Positions 7,057 through 33,713 of a DNA stretch of 33,930 bases are shown here, in pieces. The notes beneath the pieces were generated by a model. The model saw only the letters and a program-made list of their open reading frames with translations, did not search any database and was not told where the DNA came from. The stretch's first letter is position 1; every line of letters begins with the position of its first letter. This DNA comes from Candidatus Cloacimonadota bacterium (GTDB taxonomy: Bacteria; Cloacimonadota; Cloacimonadia; Cloacimonadales; Cloacimonadaceae). The stretch covers positions 1 through 33,930 of the forward strand of contig JAKQWO010000005.1 of the NCBI GenBank assembly GCA_029561955.1, in the 5' to 3' direction. Made by a program: the position numbers and the translations under genes.

Positions 7057-7132
7057 TGGGGTGGATGATGGGACTCGAACCCACAACAGCCGGAACCACA
7101 ATCCGGAGCTCTGCCATTGAACTACATCCACC
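7057..7132 (-). tRNA. tRNA-His (GTG)
   Basis: The minus strand folds as a cloverleaf with anticodon GTG in loop TTGTGGT. The extra 5' G (7132) opposite discriminator C is the tRNA-His identity element. The CCA end is encoded (7057-7059). A run of seven T follows directly. Confidence 0.95.
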
Positions 7133-7156
7133 ACGAAGTTTCGTTTTTATAAAAAG

Positions 7157-7233
7157 TGGCACGCCAGAAGGGATTCGAACCCCTGACCCGCAGCTTAGAA
7201 GGCTGCTGCTCTATCCTACTGAGCTACTGGCGC
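7157..7233 (-). tRNA. tRNA-Arg (TCT)
   Basis: Cloverleaf on the minus strand: acceptor GCGCCAG/CTGGCGT, anticodon loop CTTCTAA with anticodon TCT, T-loop TTCGAAT, encoded CCA. Confidence 0.95.
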
Positions 7234-7268
7234 GCATGGATAGCTCTGGCTATACCAAAGGAAAAAAC

Positions 7269-7345
7269 TGGTAGCGGCGCAGGGACTTGAACCCCGGACC
7301 TGCGGATTATGATTCCGACGCTCTAACCAACTGAGCTACACCGCC
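7269..7345 (-). tRNA. tRNA-Met (CAT), elongator type
   Basis: Cloverleaf with acceptor GGCGGTG/CGCCGCT, anticodon loop ATCATAA (CAT) and encoded CCA. It lacks the unpaired first base and the three G-C pairs of the initiator. A CAT anticodon could also be tRNA-Ile2 modified with lysidine; overall features favour elongator Met. Confidence 0.85.
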
Positions 7346-7367
7346 ACAGTTTATAAGCTATATCACA

Positions 7368-7396
7368 ACAAATCCGGCTATCATGGCCGGATTTGT
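7368..7396. repeat. Perfect hairpin between tRNA-Met and tRNA-fMet
   Basis: An 11-base arm ACAAATCCGGC is followed by a 7-base loop and its exact complement. There is no T-tract on either side, so it is not an ordinary terminator. It could be a processing signal in the tRNA precursor. Confidence 0.7.
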
Positions 7397-7411
7397 CATA
7401 AGTATTAAAGA

Positions 7412-7487
<76 letters not shown>

Positions 7488-15879: not shown

Positions 15880-18045
15880 TTAGGTATATTGCAACCTGTA
15901 AAGATCGTAGTAAAGCCCTTCTTTATCCAGCAGTTCAAAGTGTGATCCTTCCTCCACCAATTCACCTTTATGCAACACCAGGATGCGGTCTACATGTTGA
16001 ATGGTGGAAAGCCTGTGCGCAATGATGATGGAAGAGCGGTTTTCCACTATCTTTTTCAGCGCATCCTGGATCAGCAGCTCGGTCTCGGTGTCGATATTTG
16101 AGGTGGCTTCATCGAGGATAAAGATAGCCGGATCGTAGGCCAAAACTCTGGCAAAGGCGATGAGCTGTCTCTGTCCGGTGGAAAGCGTAGCGCCGCGTTC
16201 CATCACCGGCTCCTGATACTTCTGGGGCATTTTGCAGATAAACTTATCCGCATTGACATATTTGGCCACCTGCACCACCTCTTCATCCGTGAGCTGATCG
16301 TTGTTGAGTGCGATGTTATCTCTGATATTGCCGCTGAAGATAAACACGTCCTGCTGCACGATGCCGATATTGGCGCGGATATCGTGTAAGGCATAGCTGC
16401 TCAGCGGTTTGCCGTCAATACGTATCTCTCCCTTTTGATAGGGGTACATGCCCAACATCAGGTTTACGATCGAGGTCTTACCACTGCCGGTATGCCCCAC
16501 CAAGGCTATCTTTTCGCCTGGTTTGATCTTGAAGCTGATGTCCTTGAGCACCCATTCACCGGGGTTGTAAGCCAGCCACACGTGATCAAACTCAATCTCA
16601 CCCTCAAACTTGACATCGGAGAGAAGGTTTTCCCGATAATCCTCATTTGCCTGATCCATCAGGTCAAATATGCGCTCTGCACCTGCCAAAGCGCTCTGCA
16701 GGACATTGAACTTTTCGCTGAAATCGTTGATAGGTCGAAACAGCTTTTGGATATATTCAGTGAACGCCATCAAGAGCCCGATGGTGATCACATCGCGCAA
16801 CACCTGTCCACCTCCATACCAGATGATTACAGCTACAGCCACCTGTGAAGATACATGAATTATCGGTCTGAAGAAGGCAAAGAGCTTGAGCTGTTTGACA
16901 GAGGTATTGAAGTATTTGGTATTGATATCGACAAAATCCTGCCGTTTATTGCTGTATTGATTGAAGAGCTGGATGATCTTCTGGCCGCTGATATGTTCGG
17001 CCAAAGTGGCATTGAGAGCCGCCAGATGCTTTCTTACCTCGCGGTAGATCACACGCGTGCGCCGTCTGAATTCAGCGATCACGGCGATCACGATGGGCAG
17101 CAGCGTAAAGCTCACCAAAGCAAGCTGCCAATCCAAAACTAGCATCAACACTATGATCGCCACGATCAGGATGCTATCCTGAATGATGGTGATCACGCCG
17201 GAAGCCAGCATCTCATCTATGGCTCTCACGTCGTTGGTAACCCTGGTAACCAGCCGTCCCACCGGGTTTTGATCAAAATACTTTACCGGCATCTTCTGCA
17301 GGTGGGCAAAGACATCGTGTCTCAGGTCGTTCATCGCCATCTGCGAGAAATAGGCTGTCACCACACTTTGGAGGTAGCCGCTGGCGAAGCGCAACACGAT
17401 GATGACCAGGAAGATCAGTGCCAGCCAGATCAGTTGATCCGCAGATTCCTTGCGCAATTGAAAGCGGTCTCTGCCTGGGATTTTATCCAAGTGCGCCTTA
17501 GGAACGGCGATCTCATCTTCACTGATCTTAAACCAGCCTTCCGTGCCTTTTTTACTGGCATGTGGCTGTTTCACCTGTGGCAGATAACGGTTTAAAAGCT
17601 CGATCTTGTCCGAGCCACTTTTGATGATATAGAAGCTGCCAGAGGTCAAGTAACCCTGCTTGGCAACCTCATCCAAATCTATCTTGTTGATCTTGTTTCT
17701 ATCTCTGGATTTGACGATCACAAAGTTTTTGTTTTCATAGCGATACTGCTGTTTGGCCGGCAGCTTGTATTTGGCCACAAAAGCCTGCGGCATCGCTTCA
17801 TCTTCAAAGATCAGCAGCGATCTGTTGGATACGATGAGATCATCGATTGCAGTGCGCTGGATCAAAGGTATGATCACCTCCGCACCTGCCACAAAAAGCA
17901 GCACGAAGAGCGAGAATAATACCCACTTGAGATATGGCTTCAGATAGAACAGCAATCTGGCATAGAGACGACGGTCGTAGATCTTGCCTTTGACGTCATC
18001 CGCAACGAAACCCCTGCCTCCGGGGCCACCACCACCCATGCGCAT
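15880..18045 (-). CDS. ABC exporter subunit with large extracytoplasmic insertion (catalytic half)
   Basis: This 721-residue membrane-ATPase fusion forms a heterodimeric exporter with the product of the gene upstream. Its ATPase has Walker A GHTGSGKTS (517-525), signature LSTGQRQ (621-627, second Gly replaced by Thr), Walker B FILDEATS with catalytic Glu646, and the switch histidine in AHRLS. Between the first and second membrane helices (about residues 72-205) there is an insertion of about 130 polar residues, which explains the extra length over the usual 580. It should lie outside the membrane. The N-terminus is glycine-rich. The ATG overlaps the stop of the upstream gene by one base (TAATG) after a GAGGAGG ribosome site. 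The substrate is unknown. Confidence 0.9.
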   Translation of the reverse strand: MRMGGGGPGGRGFVADDVKGKIYDRRLYARLLFYLKPYLKWVLFSLFVLLFVAGAEVIIPLIQRTAIDDLIVSNRSLLIFEDEAMPQAFVAKYKLPAKQQYRYENKNFVIVKSRDRNKINKIDLDEVAKQGYLTSGSFYIIKSGSDKIELLNRYLPQVKQPHASKKGTEGWFKISEDEIAVPKAHLDKIPGRDRFQLRKESADQLIWLALIFLVIIVLRFASGYLQSVVTAYFSQMAMNDLRHDVFAHLQKMPVKYFDQNPVGRLVTRVTNDVRAIDEMLASGVITIIQDSILIVAIIVLMLVLDWQLALVSFTLLPIVIAVIAEFRRRTRVIYREVRKHLAALNATLAEHISGQKIIQLFNQYSNKRQDFVDINTKYFNTSVKQLKLFAFFRPIIHVSSQVAVAVIIWYGGGQVLRDVITIGLLMAFTEYIQKLFRPINDFSEKFNVLQSALAGAERIFDLMDQANEDYRENLLSDVKFEGEIEFDHVWLAYNPGEWVLKDISFKIKPGEKIALVGHTGSGKTSIVNLMLGMYPYQKGEIRIDGKPLSSYALHDIRANIGIVQQDVFIFSGNIRDNIALNNDQLTDEEVVQVAKYVNADKFICKMPQKYQEPVMERGATLSTGQRQLIAFARVLAYDPAIFILDEATSNIDTETELLIQDALKKIVENRSSIIIAHRLSTIQHVDRILVLHKGELVEEGSHFELLDKEGLYYDLYRLQYT

Positions 18046-19796
18046 TATTCCTCCTCTCCTTCCAGTCTGGCGCGGATGCGCTGTTTTTCAAAGAGGTCAT
18101 AATAGAGACCTTTCTGTCCCATCAAGCCGACGTGGTTACCCATTTCCAGCAGGTCGCCCTGACCCAAGACCATGATCTTATCCGCATGCTGGATGGAAGA
18201 AATGCGGTGGGCGATGATGATCGTAGTCTTGCCTTTACGTGCTTTGATCAGGCTTTCCAGGATAAAGCGTTCTGTCTTGGTATCCACGGCGCTCAGGGCA
18301 TCGTCCAAGATCAACACCTTGGGGTCGGTAAGCAGAGCTCTGGCGATGGCTACGCGCTGCTTTTGTCCACCGGAAAGCGTGATGCCACGCTCGCCAACCA
18401 CCGTCTCAAATTTGTGTTCAAAATCCATGATTTCATCGTATACCTGAGCGATGCGTGCCGCTTCGTAGACGGCTTCCATAGGAGCGTTTGCATCTGCCAG
18501 GCGGATGTTGTCTGCCAGAGATTCTGAAAAGAGGAAGATGTCCTGCGGCACCAACACGATCTCGTGTCTCAGCACCTGCAGCGGTATTTGGTTTACCGGA
18601 TAGCCATCGATCAGGATGCTTCCCTCAGGTGGCTCATAGATGCGTGAGATCAGCTCTATCAGCGTGGTTTTGCCACATCCAGTAGGCCCCACAATCGCCA
18701 AAGTCTGGCCGCTGTCTATGCTGGCGGTGATGTCTTTGAGCACCAAGGGCAAGTTTACGCCATAGCGGAAGCTGAGGTTTTTAAACTCTATCGCACCCTG
18801 GAGTTCCGTGATGCTCTGGTCTGCATCCACATCGGTGATCTCCGGCTTGAGCACAAAGATCTCATTCAGCCGCTGCAGCGATGCCGTGCCTCTCTGATAC
18901 ATATCCACGATCCAACCGATGGCAATCATCGGCCAAACCAACATATTCAAATACTGGAAGAAAGCGATGAATTCACCGATGGTGATCTCGCCGCGAATCG
19001 TGGCTCTACCACCAAAATAGAGCGTGATGATCACCGAAATGCTAATCACAAAGTTCATGAAAGGATGGAAGACACCGGCGATCTTGGCCAGTGAAATGTT
19101 CTGCTTCACAAAGTGCATGGACACATCATCCACCTTGGCCAGCTCGGCTTCCTCCTGAGCAAAAGCTTTCACCACCCGGATGCCGGAAACGCTCTCCTGG
19201 ATGGCACCACTCATGGAGGCAAAACTGGCCTGCACCTTGCGGAAGGTGACGTGCATCTTCTTGCCAAAATAGCCAATGGTAAGCGAAAGTAGCGGCATGG
19301 GAAGCACTGCCAAAACCGTGAGCTTCCAATTGATGGTGCCCATAAAGCTGAAGGACGCAACCGTCATCAACACGATATCCATCGCCGCAATCAAACCCAT
19401 GCCAAACAGCATCCTCACTGCGTTGAGATCGTTTGTAGCATAGGCCATCAGGTCGCCAATCTTACTCTTATTGAAAAAGGTCTGGCTCAAACCCATCAGA
19501 TGATCATAAAAATCCTGGCGTAAATGACGCTCAATCGTGAAGGAATTGCCGATGATCAAAATGCGCCAAAAGTAACGCAAAGCCATGACCCCCAGAGCAC
19601 CTGCAAGGATTAACAGCGCCACCCAAAAGAGGCCTTTCTGATCTATGGTGCGCATCTGTAAATTGTCGATGGCATATTGCATCACCTTGGGCATGATCAA
19701 CTGGATCAAGTCCACCAGGATCAACATGATAATGCCCCCAACGATCTTGCCATAACTCTTCCGCAAATAGGGAAGAATCGAGTCAAAAGTTCGCAT
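18045..19796 (-). CDS. ABC exporter subunit (half with degenerate Walker B)
   Basis: This 583-residue partner has six membrane helices and one ATPase domain. Walker A is GPTGCGKTT (370-378) and the signature LSGGQKQ (474-480) is canonical, but Walker B is VLILDDALS with Asp499 in place of the catalytic Glu. With the altered signature of the other subunit this predicts one inactive composite site (this Walker A/B with the partner's LSTGQ) and one active site. That is the known asymmetry of heterodimeric exporters such as TM287/288. ACGGAG precedes the ATG. Multidrug or lipid export is likely, but the substrate is not visible. Confidence 0.92.
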   Translation of the reverse strand: MRTFDSILPYLRKSYGKIVGGIIMLILVDLIQLIMPKVMQYAIDNLQMRTIDQKGLFWVALLILAGALGVMALRYFWRILIIGNSFTIERHLRQDFYDHLMGLSQTFFNKSKIGDLMAYATNDLNAVRMLFGMGLIAAMDIVLMTVASFSFMGTINWKLTVLAVLPMPLLSLTIGYFGKKMHVTFRKVQASFASMSGAIQESVSGIRVVKAFAQEEAELAKVDDVSMHFVKQNISLAKIAGVFHPFMNFVISISVIITLYFGGRATIRGEITIGEFIAFFQYLNMLVWPMIAIGWIVDMYQRGTASLQRLNEIFVLKPEITDVDADQSITELQGAIEFKNLSFRYGVNLPLVLKDITASIDSGQTLAIVGPTGCGKTTLIELISRIYEPPEGSILIDGYPVNQIPLQVLRHEIVLVPQDIFLFSESLADNIRLADANAPMEAVYEAARIAQVYDEIMDFEHKFETVVGERGITLSGGQKQRVAIARALLTDPKVLILDDALSAVDTKTERFILESLIKARKGKTTIIIAHRISSIQHADKIMVLGQGDLLEMGNHVGLMGQKGLYYDLFEKQRIRARLEGEEE

Positions 19797-27594: not shown

Positions 27595-28002
27595 ATGAAC
27601 ATTACAGAGATTACGAGCAAGATCAAGGCTCTGTTTTCGCAAGCGAGCGGAGTGAATGTGTCTTTTGGTGAAGCCAATACGATTGGCGAAGTTACAGTGA
27701 TCCCCGTGGCCAAGGTGATGCTTGGTGGCGGTGGTGGCGAAGGTAGCAGCAGCAGGCGCAAAAAAGGTAAAAAGCCTGTGGTTTCCACAAATATAGAAAC
27801 CAAGCCCACTGAAGAAGGCAAGAAGCCAGACGATTATGGTGTTGGATTTGGCGGTGGAGCTACCACTACGCCTCTGGGTATTTTTGCTATCCGTGACGGC
27901 AAAGTGGCGTTTCATCCCGTGGTTACGATCGAGAAAGTGTTTGGTTTTGGTCTGCTGTTCCTGATTGCCATCTTTGTTTTTGGCCCCAAGCCCAAGAAAT
28001 GA
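27595..28002 (+). CDS. YtfJ/GerW-like protein with C-terminal membrane helix
   Basis: This 135-residue protein matches the Spore_YtfJ (GerW) pattern: an N-terminal helix, VSFGEANTIGEVTVIPVAKV, a Gly-rich loop (GGGGGEGSS), then GVGFGGGATTTPLGIFAIRDGKVAFHPVV. In spore formers it is a spore protein, but relatives exist in many non-sporulating bacteria and their role is unknown. A Lys/Arg-rich and Thr/Pro linker (residues about 47-75) is inserted in the middle. The end (VFGFGLLFLIAIFVFGPK) is a likely membrane helix. AAGGAGG precedes the ATG and a promoter lies upstream. It is followed after 58 bases by lplA. Confidence 0.75.
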   Translation: MNITEITSKIKALFSQASGVNVSFGEANTIGEVTVIPVAKVMLGGGGGEGSSSRRKKGKKPVVSTNIETKPTEEGKKPDDYGVGFGGGATTTPLGIFAIRDGKVAFHPVVTIEKVFGFGLLFLIAIFVFGPKPKK

Positions 28003-29041: not shown

Positions 29042-29215
29042 GATTTTTCCACGAATTACACGAATTGACACGAATTAAGGTGCCAGCTACCGCTGGCTTG
29101 TCTTTCCACGAATACGCACGAATGGCAAGCGACCATGCTTTACTTTAGGGTGGCGACCGCCGGCTACAGGGCTGTTGTAAGGTAGGGCGGTTGCGACACC
29201 GCCCTACATCACCGC
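29042..29215. repeat. Repeat cluster between lplA and the ABC gene
   Basis: It contains a tandem ACACGAATT-type repeat (29049-29075) and a partial one near 29104-29124. GCCAGC-TACC-GCTGGC with TTGTCTTT (29082-29105) could serve as the lplA terminator. A perfect 10-base GC hairpin GTAGGGCGGT/ACCGCCCTAC lies at 29182-29207. Confidence 0.7.
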
Positions 29216-30949
29216 TCATTCATGGTTATTCTCTGCATTTAGCAAATCCCGATAATCCTCATTATTTGCCATCAGATTCTCGTGCTGATCCTGGATCACA
29301 GTTCCTTCGCTCACAAAGAGCACCTCATCGTAACGGGTGATCTCATCCAAATCGTGAGTGATAGTCAATGAAAGGCGATCTGCCACCACTTCCTGCATGA
29401 GATCATCTATCTTCACTCTTAGTTCCGCATCCAGCCCCGTCTTGCCCTCATCTACCAGGATCATCTGATACTGCTGTTTCAGCAGCAAGCGCAGCAGGCA
29501 GACCATGCGTTTTTCTCCACCGGAAAGCTGCTTGCCTTCTTTGGGGTTGGTCTTAATCCCGTCGGTAAAACGCTCAAAGAACGAGGCAAAACCTTGTTCA
29601 GCGATTAGCTTATCCAAGTCCTGCTGAAGATTGGTGTCGCCCAGGAGGATGTTGTCTTCAATGGTGCCGCGGAAGATGTAAGAATCCTGCAGCAAGACAA
29701 AGCAGTTCTTTTTCCACCATTCTTCGGCTATCTCAGTGGTTTTGGTGCCATTGATCAGGATGCTGCCTTCCTGGGAATGCATGATTCCATTCAGGAGGTC
29801 AAAGAGGGTGGATTTCCCTGATCCCGTCCGGCCTACCAGGACATATTTCCTATTATCTGAAAGAGTTAGGGAGGGGATGCTGAGCTCAAACTTTGATTCC
29901 GGATAGGCAAACTTCACCTTCTCAAACTCCACTTTCAGTGCCGGCAAGTCAGGTGGCTGTTTCTGCGGATTGTCCACTGTAGTTGCATACAATTCCGCCA
30001 CGCGATCCAGAGAAGGTATCCTGCGGTGGTAATCATCACTGATCGCCAGACAGAGTGAGTTTAGTTTGGATATTATAGACGAGGACACATAGAAGATGGC
30101 AAACAGGGTTCCCAAGGTCAGGTGTCCTTTGATTACTCCGTAAACACCCACCAAGAAGAGGATTACATAAACTCCTTTATCGAAAAAATCGTAAAAGGAA
30201 TATAGCAATGTGCCAGCTCTGCCTGCCTTCACACCTGATGTACACACATCTTGGTTTGATTTGCGGATGTTTTCCAAGAGGAAGTTTTCCAGACGTCTCG
30301 ACTTCACTTCTTTCAAGCGATACAAGGGCGAGTAGGAATCATCAAACCAGATTTCTCTTTTATCATCATGTGCTCTGTCATACTCTTCCATGTTTTTTAC
30401 GCTTTTTTTGATCAGCAGATAATACACCGGCAAGACCACAATCACACCCAAGATTCCCCAGCCAAAGAGGATATACATAACTACAAGGTCGATAACAAAC
30501 CGGATCAGCAGCGAAATCATATTGGTGGTGCCAAACACGATTGCACTCTGAAGGGCATCGCTATCTACACCCAACAGCTTGATCAAATCTGCTGAGCTTC
30601 TTTTTCCGGATATGTGGTAAGGGAGCTTGATGAGAGTCCTATATATTTCGGTGGCCAAGGAGAAAGATGCAGACCAATTGAATGTGATCAAAATGATCTG
30701 CTTCCAATAATCAACAAGGACTTCGAGAATGATTAAGACAACATAAAGGATCACTAGCCCGAGCAGCTCCCTGCCAGGCAGGTTGTCTATTCCATCGATT
30801 ACAGTTCTGTAGATAAATGGGATGGGTGTTGACAGCAAAGCCGCAAGTAGTGCAAGAAGTGTGATCTGTAGAAACTGCTTGCGAAAGCGATGCTTGATAA
30901 ACCAAATAATAAGAGCCCTATGGCTCAGCTTTTGTTTCTTTGCTGACAT
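29216..30949 (-). CDS. ABC exporter (membrane and ATPase fused), unusual ATPase motifs
   Basis: This 577-residue protein has the fold of a half-size ABC exporter with six membrane helices in residues 15-290. The ATPase has Walker A GRTGSGKST (373-381), signature LSGGEKR (475-481) and Walker B MILVDE followed by GKTGLD instead of the common ATSALD (Glu501 present), and switch His532 in THD. All catalytic residues are kept, so it is probably active as a homodimer. AGGAGG lies before the ATG. Its start is inside the end of a 59-codon frame (30925-31104), giving possible translational coupling. It is not closely like the pair at 15880-19796. The substrate may be the small peptide encoded upstream (inference). 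Confidence 0.88.
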   Translation of the reverse strand: MSAKKQKLSHRALIIWFIKHRFRKQFLQITLLALLAALLSTPIPFIYRTVIDGIDNLPGRELLGLVILYVVLIILEVLVDYWKQIILITFNWSASFSLATEIYRTLIKLPYHISGKRSSADLIKLLGVDSDALQSAIVFGTTNMISLLIRFVIDLVVMYILFGWGILGVIVVLPVYYLLIKKSVKNMEEYDRAHDDKREIWFDDSYSPLYRLKEVKSRRLENFLLENIRKSNQDVCTSGVKAGRAGTLLYSFYDFFDKGVYVILFLVGVYGVIKGHLTLGTLFAIFYVSSSIISKLNSLCLAISDDYHRRIPSLDRVAELYATTVDNPQKQPPDLPALKVEFEKVKFAYPESKFELSIPSLTLSDNRKYVLVGRTGSGKSTLFDLLNGIMHSQEGSILINGTKTTEIAEEWWKKNCFVLLQDSYIFRGTIEDNILLGDTNLQQDLDKLIAEQGFASFFERFTDGIKTNPKEGKQLSGGEKRMVCLLRLLLKQQYQMILVDEGKTGLDAELRVKIDDLMQEVVADRLSLTITHDLDEITRYDEVLFVSEGTVIQDQHENLMANNEDYRDLLNAENNHE

Positions 30950-31104
30950 GGTGATACCTCCTTATTCAAAATCTTGGTGAAACTTACGAAATCTGAAATG
31001 AAGCAATAATCCTCAGGCACAGCTCGCGCCGAAAGTGGGACTTCAAGGCTTTGTGGCCAGTTGGTGACGAGTAATAAGATCAATATTAACACGGTGAAAA
31101 GCAT
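30925..31104 (-). CDS. Candidate small membrane or secreted peptide (59 aa) coupled to the ABC exporter gene
   Basis: The minus-strand ATG at 31104 has AGGAG 6 bases upstream, better than many real genes here. The 59-residue product begins MLFTVLILILLLVTNWPQS, a strongly hydrophobic segment without basic residues in front. A polar C-terminal part with two cysteines (C34 and C53) follows: VPEDYC..., then KEVSPCQQRNKS. It reads through the ribosome site and start of the ABC gene and stops 25 bases inside it in another frame, a pattern that couples translation. It might be an exported peptide, a small subunit of the exporter, or a leader peptide. No homologue is recognised by eye, and chance cannot be excluded. 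Confidence 0.5.
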   Translation of the reverse strand: MLFTVLILILLLVTNWPQSLEVPLSARAVPEDYCFISDFVSFTKILNKEVSPCQQRNKS

Positions 31105-31286
31105 ACTATGCTCCTGTGGAGATGCTGTATTTTACAGGTAAAGGGGGCTGAACTGTTGGGGGTTCAGAGTTTCGATAGATTGTGCTACTTCAAAGGGCCA
31201 CACCGCCATTTGGAGAGCTTCACTTGAGGTCGCTCAAGAGTCACGACTTCAAGATGTGCGTTGGGCAGCGATCTATCTTTGGTTGC

Positions 31287-31400
31287 TCATCGTGCACACC
31301 ATCCCGTCTGACAGTGAAGGCAAAAAGAGCCCCTCTCTGAGCGAGGGCAGCTCAGAAAACTGTCATGTGTAGTACGGGCTATGTTGTTAATATTCATCAT
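31287..31400 (-). CDS. Very tentative 37-codon cysteine-containing frame (leader peptide?)
   Basis: Directly at the predicted start of transcription of the promoter at 31408-31435, ATGATG opens a 37-codon frame. It contains four cysteines (C18, C27, C30, C35) and runs through the hairpin at 31327-31353. There is no ribosome site, so it would have to be a leaderless message. It may be chance. If translated, ribosomes would cover the hairpin, which is how leader-peptide attenuation works. Confidence 0.2.
   Translation of the reverse strand: MMNINNIARTTHDSFLSCPRSERGSFCLHCQTGWCAR
31322..31353 (-). terminator. Terminator-like hairpin (attenuator?) between promoter and the 59-aa gene
   Basis: On the minus strand GAGC-TG-CCCTC pairs with GAGGGGCTC (31327-31353) and is followed by TTTTT (31322-31326). 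It lies about 50 bases downstream of the predicted start of transcription and 220 bases before the 59-aa gene, so it would end transcripts early unless overcome. Confidence 0.65.
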
Positions 31401-31407
31401 GGGGCGC

Positions 31408-31435
31408 AGGGTACAGAGGTGGCGGATGTTGTCAA
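31408..31435 (-). promoter_or_regulatory. Promoter for the peptide/ABC unit
   Basis: TTGACA (31430-31435) and TACCCT (31408-31413) are 16 bases apart on the minus strand. The -10 is weak (3 of 6), but the -35 is perfect and resembles the promoters at 385-413 and 15780-15808. Confidence 0.5.
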
Positions 31436-31447
31436 GCGATAAATCAC

Positions 31448-31476
31448 TTGCCAGAAAAAGAAGTTTTTCTTAGTGT
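31448..31476 (+). promoter_or_regulatory. Possible promoter of the IIA/CBS-permease operon
   Basis: TTGCCA (31448-31453) and TAGTGT (31471-31476) are 17 bases apart. The -10 is weak. The start would be about 25 bases before the ATG at 31507. Confidence 0.4.
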
Positions 31477-31506: not shown

Positions 31507-32412
31507 ATGTTGTTATCCAGCTTTTTAAACCCGCGCACCATCCTGATTGAGCGGGATGCGCTTGAGCGGGAGCAAATATATAAAAACATGATAGATGCGA
31601 TTTGTAAGCTATATCATAAGGAAGCACATTCCTGCAGCGATCTGCTGTTGGAAAAGATCTTGGAGCGGGATCGGGAAGCCAGCGTGGGCTATCCTTCGGG
31701 TTTGGCCATTCCGCACGTGCGTCTGGATGATTTTCATGACACGGTGTTGTGTCTCTGCTTTTTGAAGCATCCCATAGATTATGAGGGCGTGGAAGTACGC
31801 TGGATTGCCATGATTCTCACGGATATAGCTTCCTCAAGGCTTTATCTCAATATCGTTGCGGCGTTGCTGAAGGTATCCAAGGATGCGGATTTTATCCAGC
31901 GGGTTTTTGCCTGTGAAAACGCACATGATATCTTTGTGGCTTTTACCAAAGAGAAGATACAGATCAGCAAGAGCCTGCATTTATCCGACATCATGACCAC
32001 CAATCCGATCACGGTTGCACCGGATGCCACCTTGGGTGAGCTCAATTCTTTGATCAATAAATATGGGCATGCCGTTTTTCCCGTGGTGGATAAAGCGGGG
32101 CGTTTTGTGGGCGAGGCGCACATCCTCAATATGCTCAAGATAGGGGTGCCGGATTATATGCTGAGCATGAACAATCTCAATTTTCTGCAATCGGTAGAGC
32201 CCCTGGAAAGGATTTTTGAGCAGGAACATGACCTTCTGGTGCAGGATTTTATGGATAAAGAACCGCCAACTTTGGAGCCCTCGGCCTCGATCATTGAGAC
32301 GGTAAGCATGATGATCCATCGTAATAAGCGAGTTTTCTGTGTGGTCGAGGGCGACAGTCTCAAGGGTGTAATCACAGCCAAAGATATAGTTAGAAAAGTG
32401 ATAAGGGCTTAA
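31507..32412 (+). CDS. PTS-IIA-like domain fused to a CBS domain pair
   Basis: This 301-residue cytoplasmic protein has an N-terminal domain of the fructose/nitrogen-type EIIA fold (residues 1-155), with the phospho-accepting His70 in GLAIPHVR. A CBS pair follows (about 158-300): LSDIMTTNPITVAPDATL with GHAVFPVVDKAGRFVGE, then VQDFMDKEPPTLEPSAS with KRVFCVVEGDSLKGVITAKDI. CBS pairs usually bind adenine nucleotides and adjust a transporter or enzyme. AGGAG precedes the ATG. The permease gene begins 2 bases after its stop, so this protein most likely regulates it (inference). No EIIB, EIIC, HPr or EI genes are nearby. Confidence 0.88.
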   Translation: MLLSSFLNPRTILIERDALEREQIYKNMIDAICKLYHKEAHSCSDLLLEKILERDREASVGYPSGLAIPHVRLDDFHDTVLCLCFLKHPIDYEGVEVRWIAMILTDIASSRLYLNIVAALLKVSKDADFIQRVFACENAHDIFVAFTKEKIQISKSLHLSDIMTTNPITVAPDATLGELNSLINKYGHAVFPVVDKAGRFVGEAHILNMLKIGVPDYMLSMNNLNFLQSVEPLERIFEQEHDLLVQDFMDKEPPTLEPSASIIETVSMMIHRNKRVFCVVEGDSLKGVITAKDIVRKVIRA

Positions 32413-32414
32413 AA

Positions 32415-33713
32415 ATGATGATTTTCATGTTAATCGCCTTGGCTATCTTTGTGGCTACCTATGTGTTGATCATCACAGAGTGGGTCAATAAGATGTTAGC
32501 CGCCATGATCGGAGGCTTTTTGATCATCCTCACGGGGATATTACATCAGCATGAAGCGCTTTTGGCGGTGGACTGGAATGTGATCTTCTTTTTGATCGGC
32601 ATGATGATGGTGATCTCGGTGCTCAAGAAAACTGGCGTCTTCATGTATCTGGCGATCAAGACAGCCAAGGTGGCTCGGGGTAAGCCCTTATGGATAATGA
32701 TCTTGATGTTTTTGGTCACGGCATTTCTTTCTGCTTTTTTGGGTAGCGTGACCACGGTGATGATCTTGGTGCCGGTGGTGATATTGATCTGCGCTGAACT
32801 CAAGATCTCGCCTGTTTCATTTATCATCACGATGGTAATCGCCTCCAACATGGGTGGTGCGGCTACGATGGTGGGCGACCCTCCCAACATCCTGATCGGC
32901 AGCGCCACGTCTTACACCTTTTTGGACTTCCTCTTCAATCTCACTCCGCCGATATTGATCGCTTCAGGTACTAGCGTGGTTTTGATGTATCTGATCTATC
33001 ACAAAAAGCTCAAAGTTACAAACGAGAATAGAGCACGCCTGCTCAGCTACAAAGAAGATACGCTGATCAAAGACAAAAAGCTGTTGATCCGCAGCTTGGT
33101 CGTGTTAGGCTTGATGTTGATTGCTTTGGCGATGCAGAGTATTTTGCACATCGAAATTGCCACCATATCCATGACGGCGGGACTGATACTGCTCTTGATG
33201 AGCGACCGCAAAGAAGTGGATCAGGTGCTGACGCATGATATTGATTGGGTGACGCTGTTTTTCTTTATCGGGCTGTTCATTTTGGTGGAAAGCCTGGTGA
33301 AAACGGGGCTGATTGATAAAATGGCCAATACCATCGTGGCATCCACACAAGGAAATACCAAAAAAGCATCAATGATGATACTCTGGATGTCTGGAATACT
33401 TTCTGCTTTTATTGACAACGTCCCTTTCGTGGCAGCGATGATCCCCATGGTGAAAACGATGGGAAATATGTTAGGTGCAGGAGTGGATATGCATCCGGTG
33501 TGGTGGGCTCTGTCTCTGGGAACCTGCCTGGGCGGTAATGGAACACTGATCGGAGCATCGAGTAACATCGTGGCGGTGGGAATCTCCAACCGCAACGGCT
33601 ATCCCATCAGCTTCAAGCAATTTACGGTTATAGGTGCGCTGTTCACCCTCAATACCCTGGTGGTTTCGGCGGTATATATCTTGGTGAGGTATTTCTGGAT
33701 CAGGGGTTTATAG
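32415..33713 (+). CDS. ArsB/NhaD-type ion transporter (12-TM permease)
   Basis: This 432-residue membrane protein belongs to the ion transporter superfamily that includes ArsB, NhaD and the P protein. The two hairpin motifs that line the ion path are clear: GGAATMVGDPPNILIG (about 147-162) and GGNGTLIGASSNIV (373-386), which are internal repeats in inverted topology. Many hydrophobic segments fill the chain. The substrate may be Na+/H+, a dicarboxylate or an oxyanion; sequence alone does not tell. No arsR or arsC is nearby, which argues against arsenite. The ATG lies 2 bases after the IIA/CBS stop with AAGGGC as ribosome site. Coupling to the IIA/CBS protein suggests nucleotide- or phosphorylation-dependent control. 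Confidence 0.88.
   Translation: MMIFMLIALAIFVATYVLIITEWVNKMLAAMIGGFLIILTGILHQHEALLAVDWNVIFFLIGMMMVISVLKKTGVFMYLAIKTAKVARGKPLWIMILMFLVTAFLSAFLGSVTTVMILVPVVILICAELKISPVSFIITMVIASNMGGAATMVGDPPNILIGSATSYTFLDFLFNLTPPILIASGTSVVLMYLIYHKKLKVTNENRARLLSYKEDTLIKDKKLLIRSLVVLGLMLIALAMQSILHIEIATISMTAGLILLLMSDRKEVDQVLTHDIDWVTLFFFIGLFILVESLVKTGLIDKMANTIVASTQGNTKKASMMILWMSGILSAFIDNVPFVAAMIPMVKTMGNMLGAGVDMHPVWWALSLGTCLGGNGTLIGASSNIVAVGISNRNGYPISFKQFTVIGALFTLNTLVVSAVYILVRYFWIRGL

Follow-up and report, generated by a model that had tools for sequence, protein, structure and literature searches.

Short leader frames that are translated ahead of a gene and coupled to its translation are well known; to our knowledge, the source of such frames is seldom visible. 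The locus analysed here raises the question of what a small open frame overlapping the start of an ABC exporter gene is, and where it came from. The window, that is, the whole stretch of DNA under analysis (33,930 nt), is one entire contig (JAKQWO010000005.1) of a Candidatus Cloacimonadota bacterium with a genome of 2.13 Mb (GCA_029561955.1). A sequence-only reading had proposed a 59-codon peptide gene translationally coupled to the exporter, with a product acting as cargo, accessory subunit or leader. The elements concerned are the following:

30925-31104, minus strand: leader frame, the reported peptide gene, 59 codons, seen in the sequence and in orthologues in two other species (genomes G003 and G002)
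31111-31115, minus strand: ribosome site AGGAG of the leader frame, kept in all three species
30957-30962, minus strand: ribosome site AGGAGG of the exporter, within the leader frame (region of codons 48-50), invariant in the three species
29216-30949, minus strand: ABC exporter half-transporter of 577 aa, matching Pfam PF00664 and PF00005 (ABC_membrane and ABC_tran, its transmembrane and ATPase domains)

The frame was present exactly as described, running from an ATG at 31104 to a TGA at 30927-30925 and encoding the 59-aa product MLFTVLILILLLVTNWPQSLEVPLSARAVPEDYCFISDFVSFTKILNKEVSPCQQRNKS. The AGGAG at 31115-31111 is separated from the ATG by 6 nt, and the claimed hydrophobic N-terminus and two cysteines (C34 and C53) are also there, although the second cysteine is the exporter start read out of frame. 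Indeed, codons 53-59 and the stop consist of exporter codons in another register, and C53 is the TGT obtained when that start is read one base late (A-TGT-CA). With the exporter ATG at 30949, the overlap is exactly 25 nt, and both this overlap and the location of the exporter ribosome site inside the frame, as claimed, are seen in the sequence. Open frames of 59 codons are not unusual in themselves, many similar ones appearing in the ORF list of the window; this one stands above chance because its start, ribosome site, reading frame and stop position are the same in both other species that carry a close exporter.

Those two species were the only ones with a close exporter among the 125 genomes of the phylum that were searched (G003, 83% identical; G002, 80%). 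The leader-frame orthologues (G003:C7:34145-34312 and G002:C1:27245-27409) occupy the same location and share both ribosome sites and the stop, and downstream of the exporter all three species have LplA. The next homologue, in a genome of the same order and another family (G095), is 43% identical; it is preceded by short tandem repeats and a divergent gene that, from a reading of its sequence, we take to be deoC-like, and such a frame is absent before it. The expectation that the frame would persist upstream of orthologous exporters was thus borne out at both close loci but not at the 43% homologue. Beyond the phylum, only distant relatives of the exporter were found. The similarity between G002 and the window starts at 31460, just upstream of a putative promoter described below, so that promoter, leader RNA, frame and exporter behave as one block; leader RNA, frame and exporter were found only together. 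In genomes lacking the exporter we did not find a clean empty site, since the neighbours on one side are conserved and the other flank differs. The conserved neighbours, at 31507-33713 on the plus strand, are a gene for a PTS-EIIA and CBS protein and, directly after it, a gene for a CitMHS-type transporter, a pair retained in 9 of the 9 genus and family genomes checked. On the opposite side, positions 29042-29215 hold a GC-rich intergenic sequence of inverted repeats (gtagggcggt...accgccctac and similar), also found on both sides of the exporter at locus L018; these look like a dispersed repeat of the genus, judging from their sequence. Farther away, the window contains a gene resembling that of the sporulation protein YtfJ (27595-28002, plus strand; PF09579), in a phylum in which we know of no spore formation, and four clustered tRNA genes (7060-7487, minus strand).

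The relatives of the exporter in the PDB include BmrA, MsbA-like exporters and P-glycoprotein. The window holds two further exporter genes, adjacent to each other at 15880-19796 on the minus strand (721 and 583 aa, sharing one base at 18045), which probably encode a heterodimeric exporter; the first of them has an extended N-terminus. As regards the frame, its position before an exporter, its hydrophobic N-terminus and its conservation in three species are what would be expected of a functional secreted small peptide, whether carried by the exporter as cargo or serving it as an accessory subunit. Several observations speak against such a peptide. The exporter lacks a leader-peptidase (C39) domain, PF00664 and PF00005 being its only Pfam matches; inspection by eye of the three frame products revealed no double-glycine motif, with neither GG nor GA at a cleavage position; the homologous exporter of G095 does without the frame; and C53 is imposed by the exporter start codon.

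The origin of the frame provides a further argument. Besides the orthologues, the orthologue search also hit, weakly, the N-terminal end of a protein (~707 aa) encoded in the same genomes, a DUF5916-type outer-membrane protein, which delimits one more element:

30982-31104, minus strand: codons 1-41 of the frame, derived from the start of a DUF5916-type outer-membrane gene, by DNA match, start-region ranking and profile

Aligned from the start codon without gaps, codons 1-41 were identical to the DUF5916-type gene starts of the genus at 68-82 of 123 bases. The match falls sharply past codon 41 (9-14 of 54 bases), and of the 30 bases just before the start codon 10-15 are identical. When 1,936 ORF start regions in the sequences examined were ranked, the DUF5916-type genes took the top three places for each of the three frames, the best lying ~8 standard deviations above the mean. 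A profile of the N-termini of the family likewise matched all three frame products, from residues 1-4 to residues 38-41 (E values of 1.7e-5 to 4e-4, Z = 100). The family is present in 23 of 41 relatives. Pfam gave no direct match on the genus's own DUF5916-like proteins, and the assignment of the parent family to DUF5916 rests on 5 of 19 members that matched PF19313 (best E value 5e-12). In the predicted model of the parent protein (mean pLDDT 83), a signal helix is followed by strands from residue 40 and then by a large barrel; Foldseek retrieved large outer-membrane barrels with TM-scores of about 0.2-0.4, values so low that they indicate the fold class only.

The N-terminus of the frame product aligns with the part of the parent proteins that forms the signal peptide, an assignment made by homology and not by a signal-peptide predictor. 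As the match ends at codon 41 and the first strand begins at residue 40, what the frame retains is a signal peptide with its linker, the folded part of the protein being wholly missing: it is homologous to DUF5916 (PF19313) outer-membrane proteins over this segment and differs from them in lacking their beta-sandwich domain and barrel. No other convincing piece of a DUF5916 gene was found in the window or in the two sister loci. On this evidence the frame, hereafter the stub, is very probably what is left of a DUF5916-type outer-membrane gene cut off after codon 41; it does not represent a small-protein family of its own. Since the source gene still exists in the same genomes, one can follow directly how a truncated gene start became an overlapping leader frame. 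A Sec signal peptide taken from another protein also implies that a stub-derived peptide would leave through Sec, which weakens the case for a secreted partner of the exporter; together with the exporter domains and the missing double-glycine motif, this origin led us to reject a cargo or bacteriocin reading, and a cargo role for the product is unlikely. As a separate observation, the DUF5916-type genes of G002 and G003 (L036 and L035) share 95% DNA identity from codon 42 onwards and only 76% over codons 1-41, while the exporters of the two genomes are about 85% identical; recombination appears to have exchanged the body of L036 and L035, and the breakpoint falls near where the signal-peptide region ends, not far from the limit of homology with the stub. 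A limited literature search found nothing on DUF5916 outer-membrane proteins, nor on small proteins with ABC transporters in Cloacimonadota.

A severed gene start might be no more than what a rearrangement left behind when it joined an outer-membrane gene to the exporter: perhaps translated but without a role, and evolving slowly because it overlaps RNA, ribosome sites and the exporter start. Substitutions among the three species bear on this in both directions. Over codons 1-51, changes at codon positions 1/2/3 numbered 7/11/11, 14/15/11 and 10/16/15 in the three species pairs, with no third-position excess in any of them, and the dN/dS of the stub was 0.5-0.7 against 0.11-0.13 for the exporter. 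As judged from these pairs, the stub does not evolve like a strongly constrained protein, and its pattern fits a sequence without a role; blind substitution would, moreover, keep all three frames open with a probability of 0.18. Against the idea of an idle remnant, divergence amounts to 19-27% over stub codons 2-51, as against 31-50% in the upstream spacer and 41-55% at the synonymous sites of the exporter. The stub is more conserved than the adjacent spacer in each pair (Fisher P = 0.05, 0.0015 and 0.009), and its synonymous sites evolve more slowly than those of the exporter in two of the three pairs. Also, it has suffered no frame-shifting indel, its one length change being a whole codon in G003 that leaves the frame intact; the adjoining upstream spacer of 56 nt, by contrast, gained 1-3 indels per species pair. 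Its start codon and ribosome site are kept in all three species, and residue changes as few as those seen have P = 0.05 under blind substitution. Thus, the coding bias at third positions that a peptide gene would lead one to expect is missing, although the frame itself is conserved. The even codon positions and the slow synonymous sites suggest that the constraint acts largely at the nucleotide level, as for a leader. A stub devoid of any role appears fairly unlikely to us on balance, and the weak residue-level constraint makes a functional secreted peptide, already opposed by its Sec origin, very improbable.

Conservation extends upstream of the stub, where three elements were delimited:

31408-31435, minus strand: putative promoter, TTGACA (31435-31430), 16 nt and TACCCT (31413-31408), from the three-species alignment
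31277-31405, minus strand: leader RNA domain 1, from conservation, compensatory changes, shuffle and slide controls, and covariance model R1
31172-31276, minus strand: leader RNA domain 2, closed by GATAGAT/ATCTATC, with closing helices kept in three species

The -10 hexamer reads TACCCT in this genome, TATTCT in G003 and TATTAT in G002; the promoter is tentative because the hexamer is weak here and the site is missing from the list produced by a consensus scan. Between this site and the stub lies a conserved RNA of ~235 nt (31405-31172). Domain 1, which differs at 17-20% of sites in all three species pairs, would fold into a closing stem CCCGU/ACGGG, an inner stem TGACAGT/ACTGTCA with two hairpins, and then a hairpin of the GGUGCU/GAGCAACC type. 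The closing helices of domain 2 are kept in all three species with one compensatory change, and its interior diverges in G002 (40-45%). Single-sequence folds gave z-scores of -1.6, -2.5 and -2.0. In the common structure 96% of cells are paired and four compensatory changes occur; slid versions show 0-1, and among 500 shuffles 11 did as well. The leader RNA is probably structured, the structure itself being a candidate because three sequences are few. Searches with model R1 found it in only 3 of 125 genomes, the exporter-bearing species; Rfam had no match at gathering threshold or at E ≤ 1, and BLAST detected no second copy in the same genome. It is a candidate cis-regulatory RNA. Terminator-like sites occur before the frame (31359-31331) and at its stop codon (30926-30913), seven being found over the region against 2.1 expected.

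Taken together, we lean towards the relic gene start having been retained, behind the leader RNA, as a leader cistron that is translated and coupled to the exporter, and we hold a leader role of the stub to be somewhat better than an even bet, drawing on only three genomes, all related. The stub has its own ribosome site and start, its stop overlaps the downstream start, and the frame is conserved at all three close exporter loci and absent from the 43% homologue. In a common ancestor of the three species, codons 1-41 of a DUF5916-type gene would have been placed directly before the exporter without the remainder of the gene. One transcript, probably starting just after 31408, would carry the folded leader RNA, the stub and the exporter; translation of the stub would open the exporter start region, ribosomes would re-initiate there, and the stub would in this way set the level of exporter translation, the peptide being a by-product. 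Most likely, then, the stub helps ribosomes to start the exporter gene rather than supplying an export peptide. Among the roles first proposed, leader fits best, while cargo and accessory subunit lack support. The locus also warns that a conserved small frame beside an exporter is not always a peptide gene.

The exporter ribosome site is partly paired in all three species (mean unpaired probability 0.22-0.33 in longer context), not beyond shuffles. A hairpin pairing the invariant TTGCTTC block, which codes for Cys34-Phe35, with GGAGGTA was no better than shuffled controls and was rejected. Coupling is made plausible by the overlap, the separate ribosome site of the stub and the conserved frame, but rests on layout since the predicted masking is no stronger than chance, a result that also suits a stub without function; the exporter's own strong ribosome site might count against a need for coupling. 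We also discarded fusion of stub and exporter through a -1 frameshift, since inspection by eye showed no slippery site conserved in the frame of the stub. Alternatively, the stub might act as a nascent-chain sensor like SecM or CutF, directed to the Sec translocon and pausing at its C-terminus to open the exporter start according to the secretion or envelope state. An N-terminus that resembles a signal peptide and comes from a secreted protein would suit this, as would the overlap with an envelope transporter gene directly downstream, the pairing potential of TTGCTTC and the structured RNA upstream. Nevertheless, we recognised no ribosome arrest motif in the stub by eye, its C-terminal residues are dictated by the exporter ribosome site and start codons, and the masking hairpin does not exceed chance, so that we give such a sensor a small probability. 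Scarcely less doubtful is the wider proposal that a severed outer-membrane gene start was recruited as a sensor in which Sec-targeted translation and an undescribed leader RNA together set exporter synthesis by the envelope or secretion state.

The coupled leader cistron that we favour can be set beside three known systems. In Bacillus subtilis, expression of the multidrug ABC exporter bmrCD depends on translation of the bmrB frame, which acts by attenuating transcription and whose coding sequence contains a terminator; an intergenic region is described before the exporter (PMC4191407). The likeness is one of layout, a short translated frame directly upstream of an ABC exporter and RNA stem-loops in the leader; unlike bmrB, the stub overlaps the exporter, derives from an outer-membrane gene start and has the structured RNA before the frame. 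In the SecM-secA and CutF-cutO pairs, a leader protein with a secretion signal lies just before an envelope-related gene and can control its ribosome site (PMC10502375). The stub differs in having no recognised arrest sequence, in a C-terminus made of the exporter start region read in another frame, and in being followed by an ABC exporter. Finally, mgtQ of Salmonella is a translated small frame upstream of mgtB that works through Asp/Glu codons and translation abortion (PMC8092293). Like mgtQ, the stub is short, has a strong ribosome site and would promote translation of a downstream transporter; mgtQ, however, has 8 codons and is intergenic, whereas the stub runs into the gene that it would serve.
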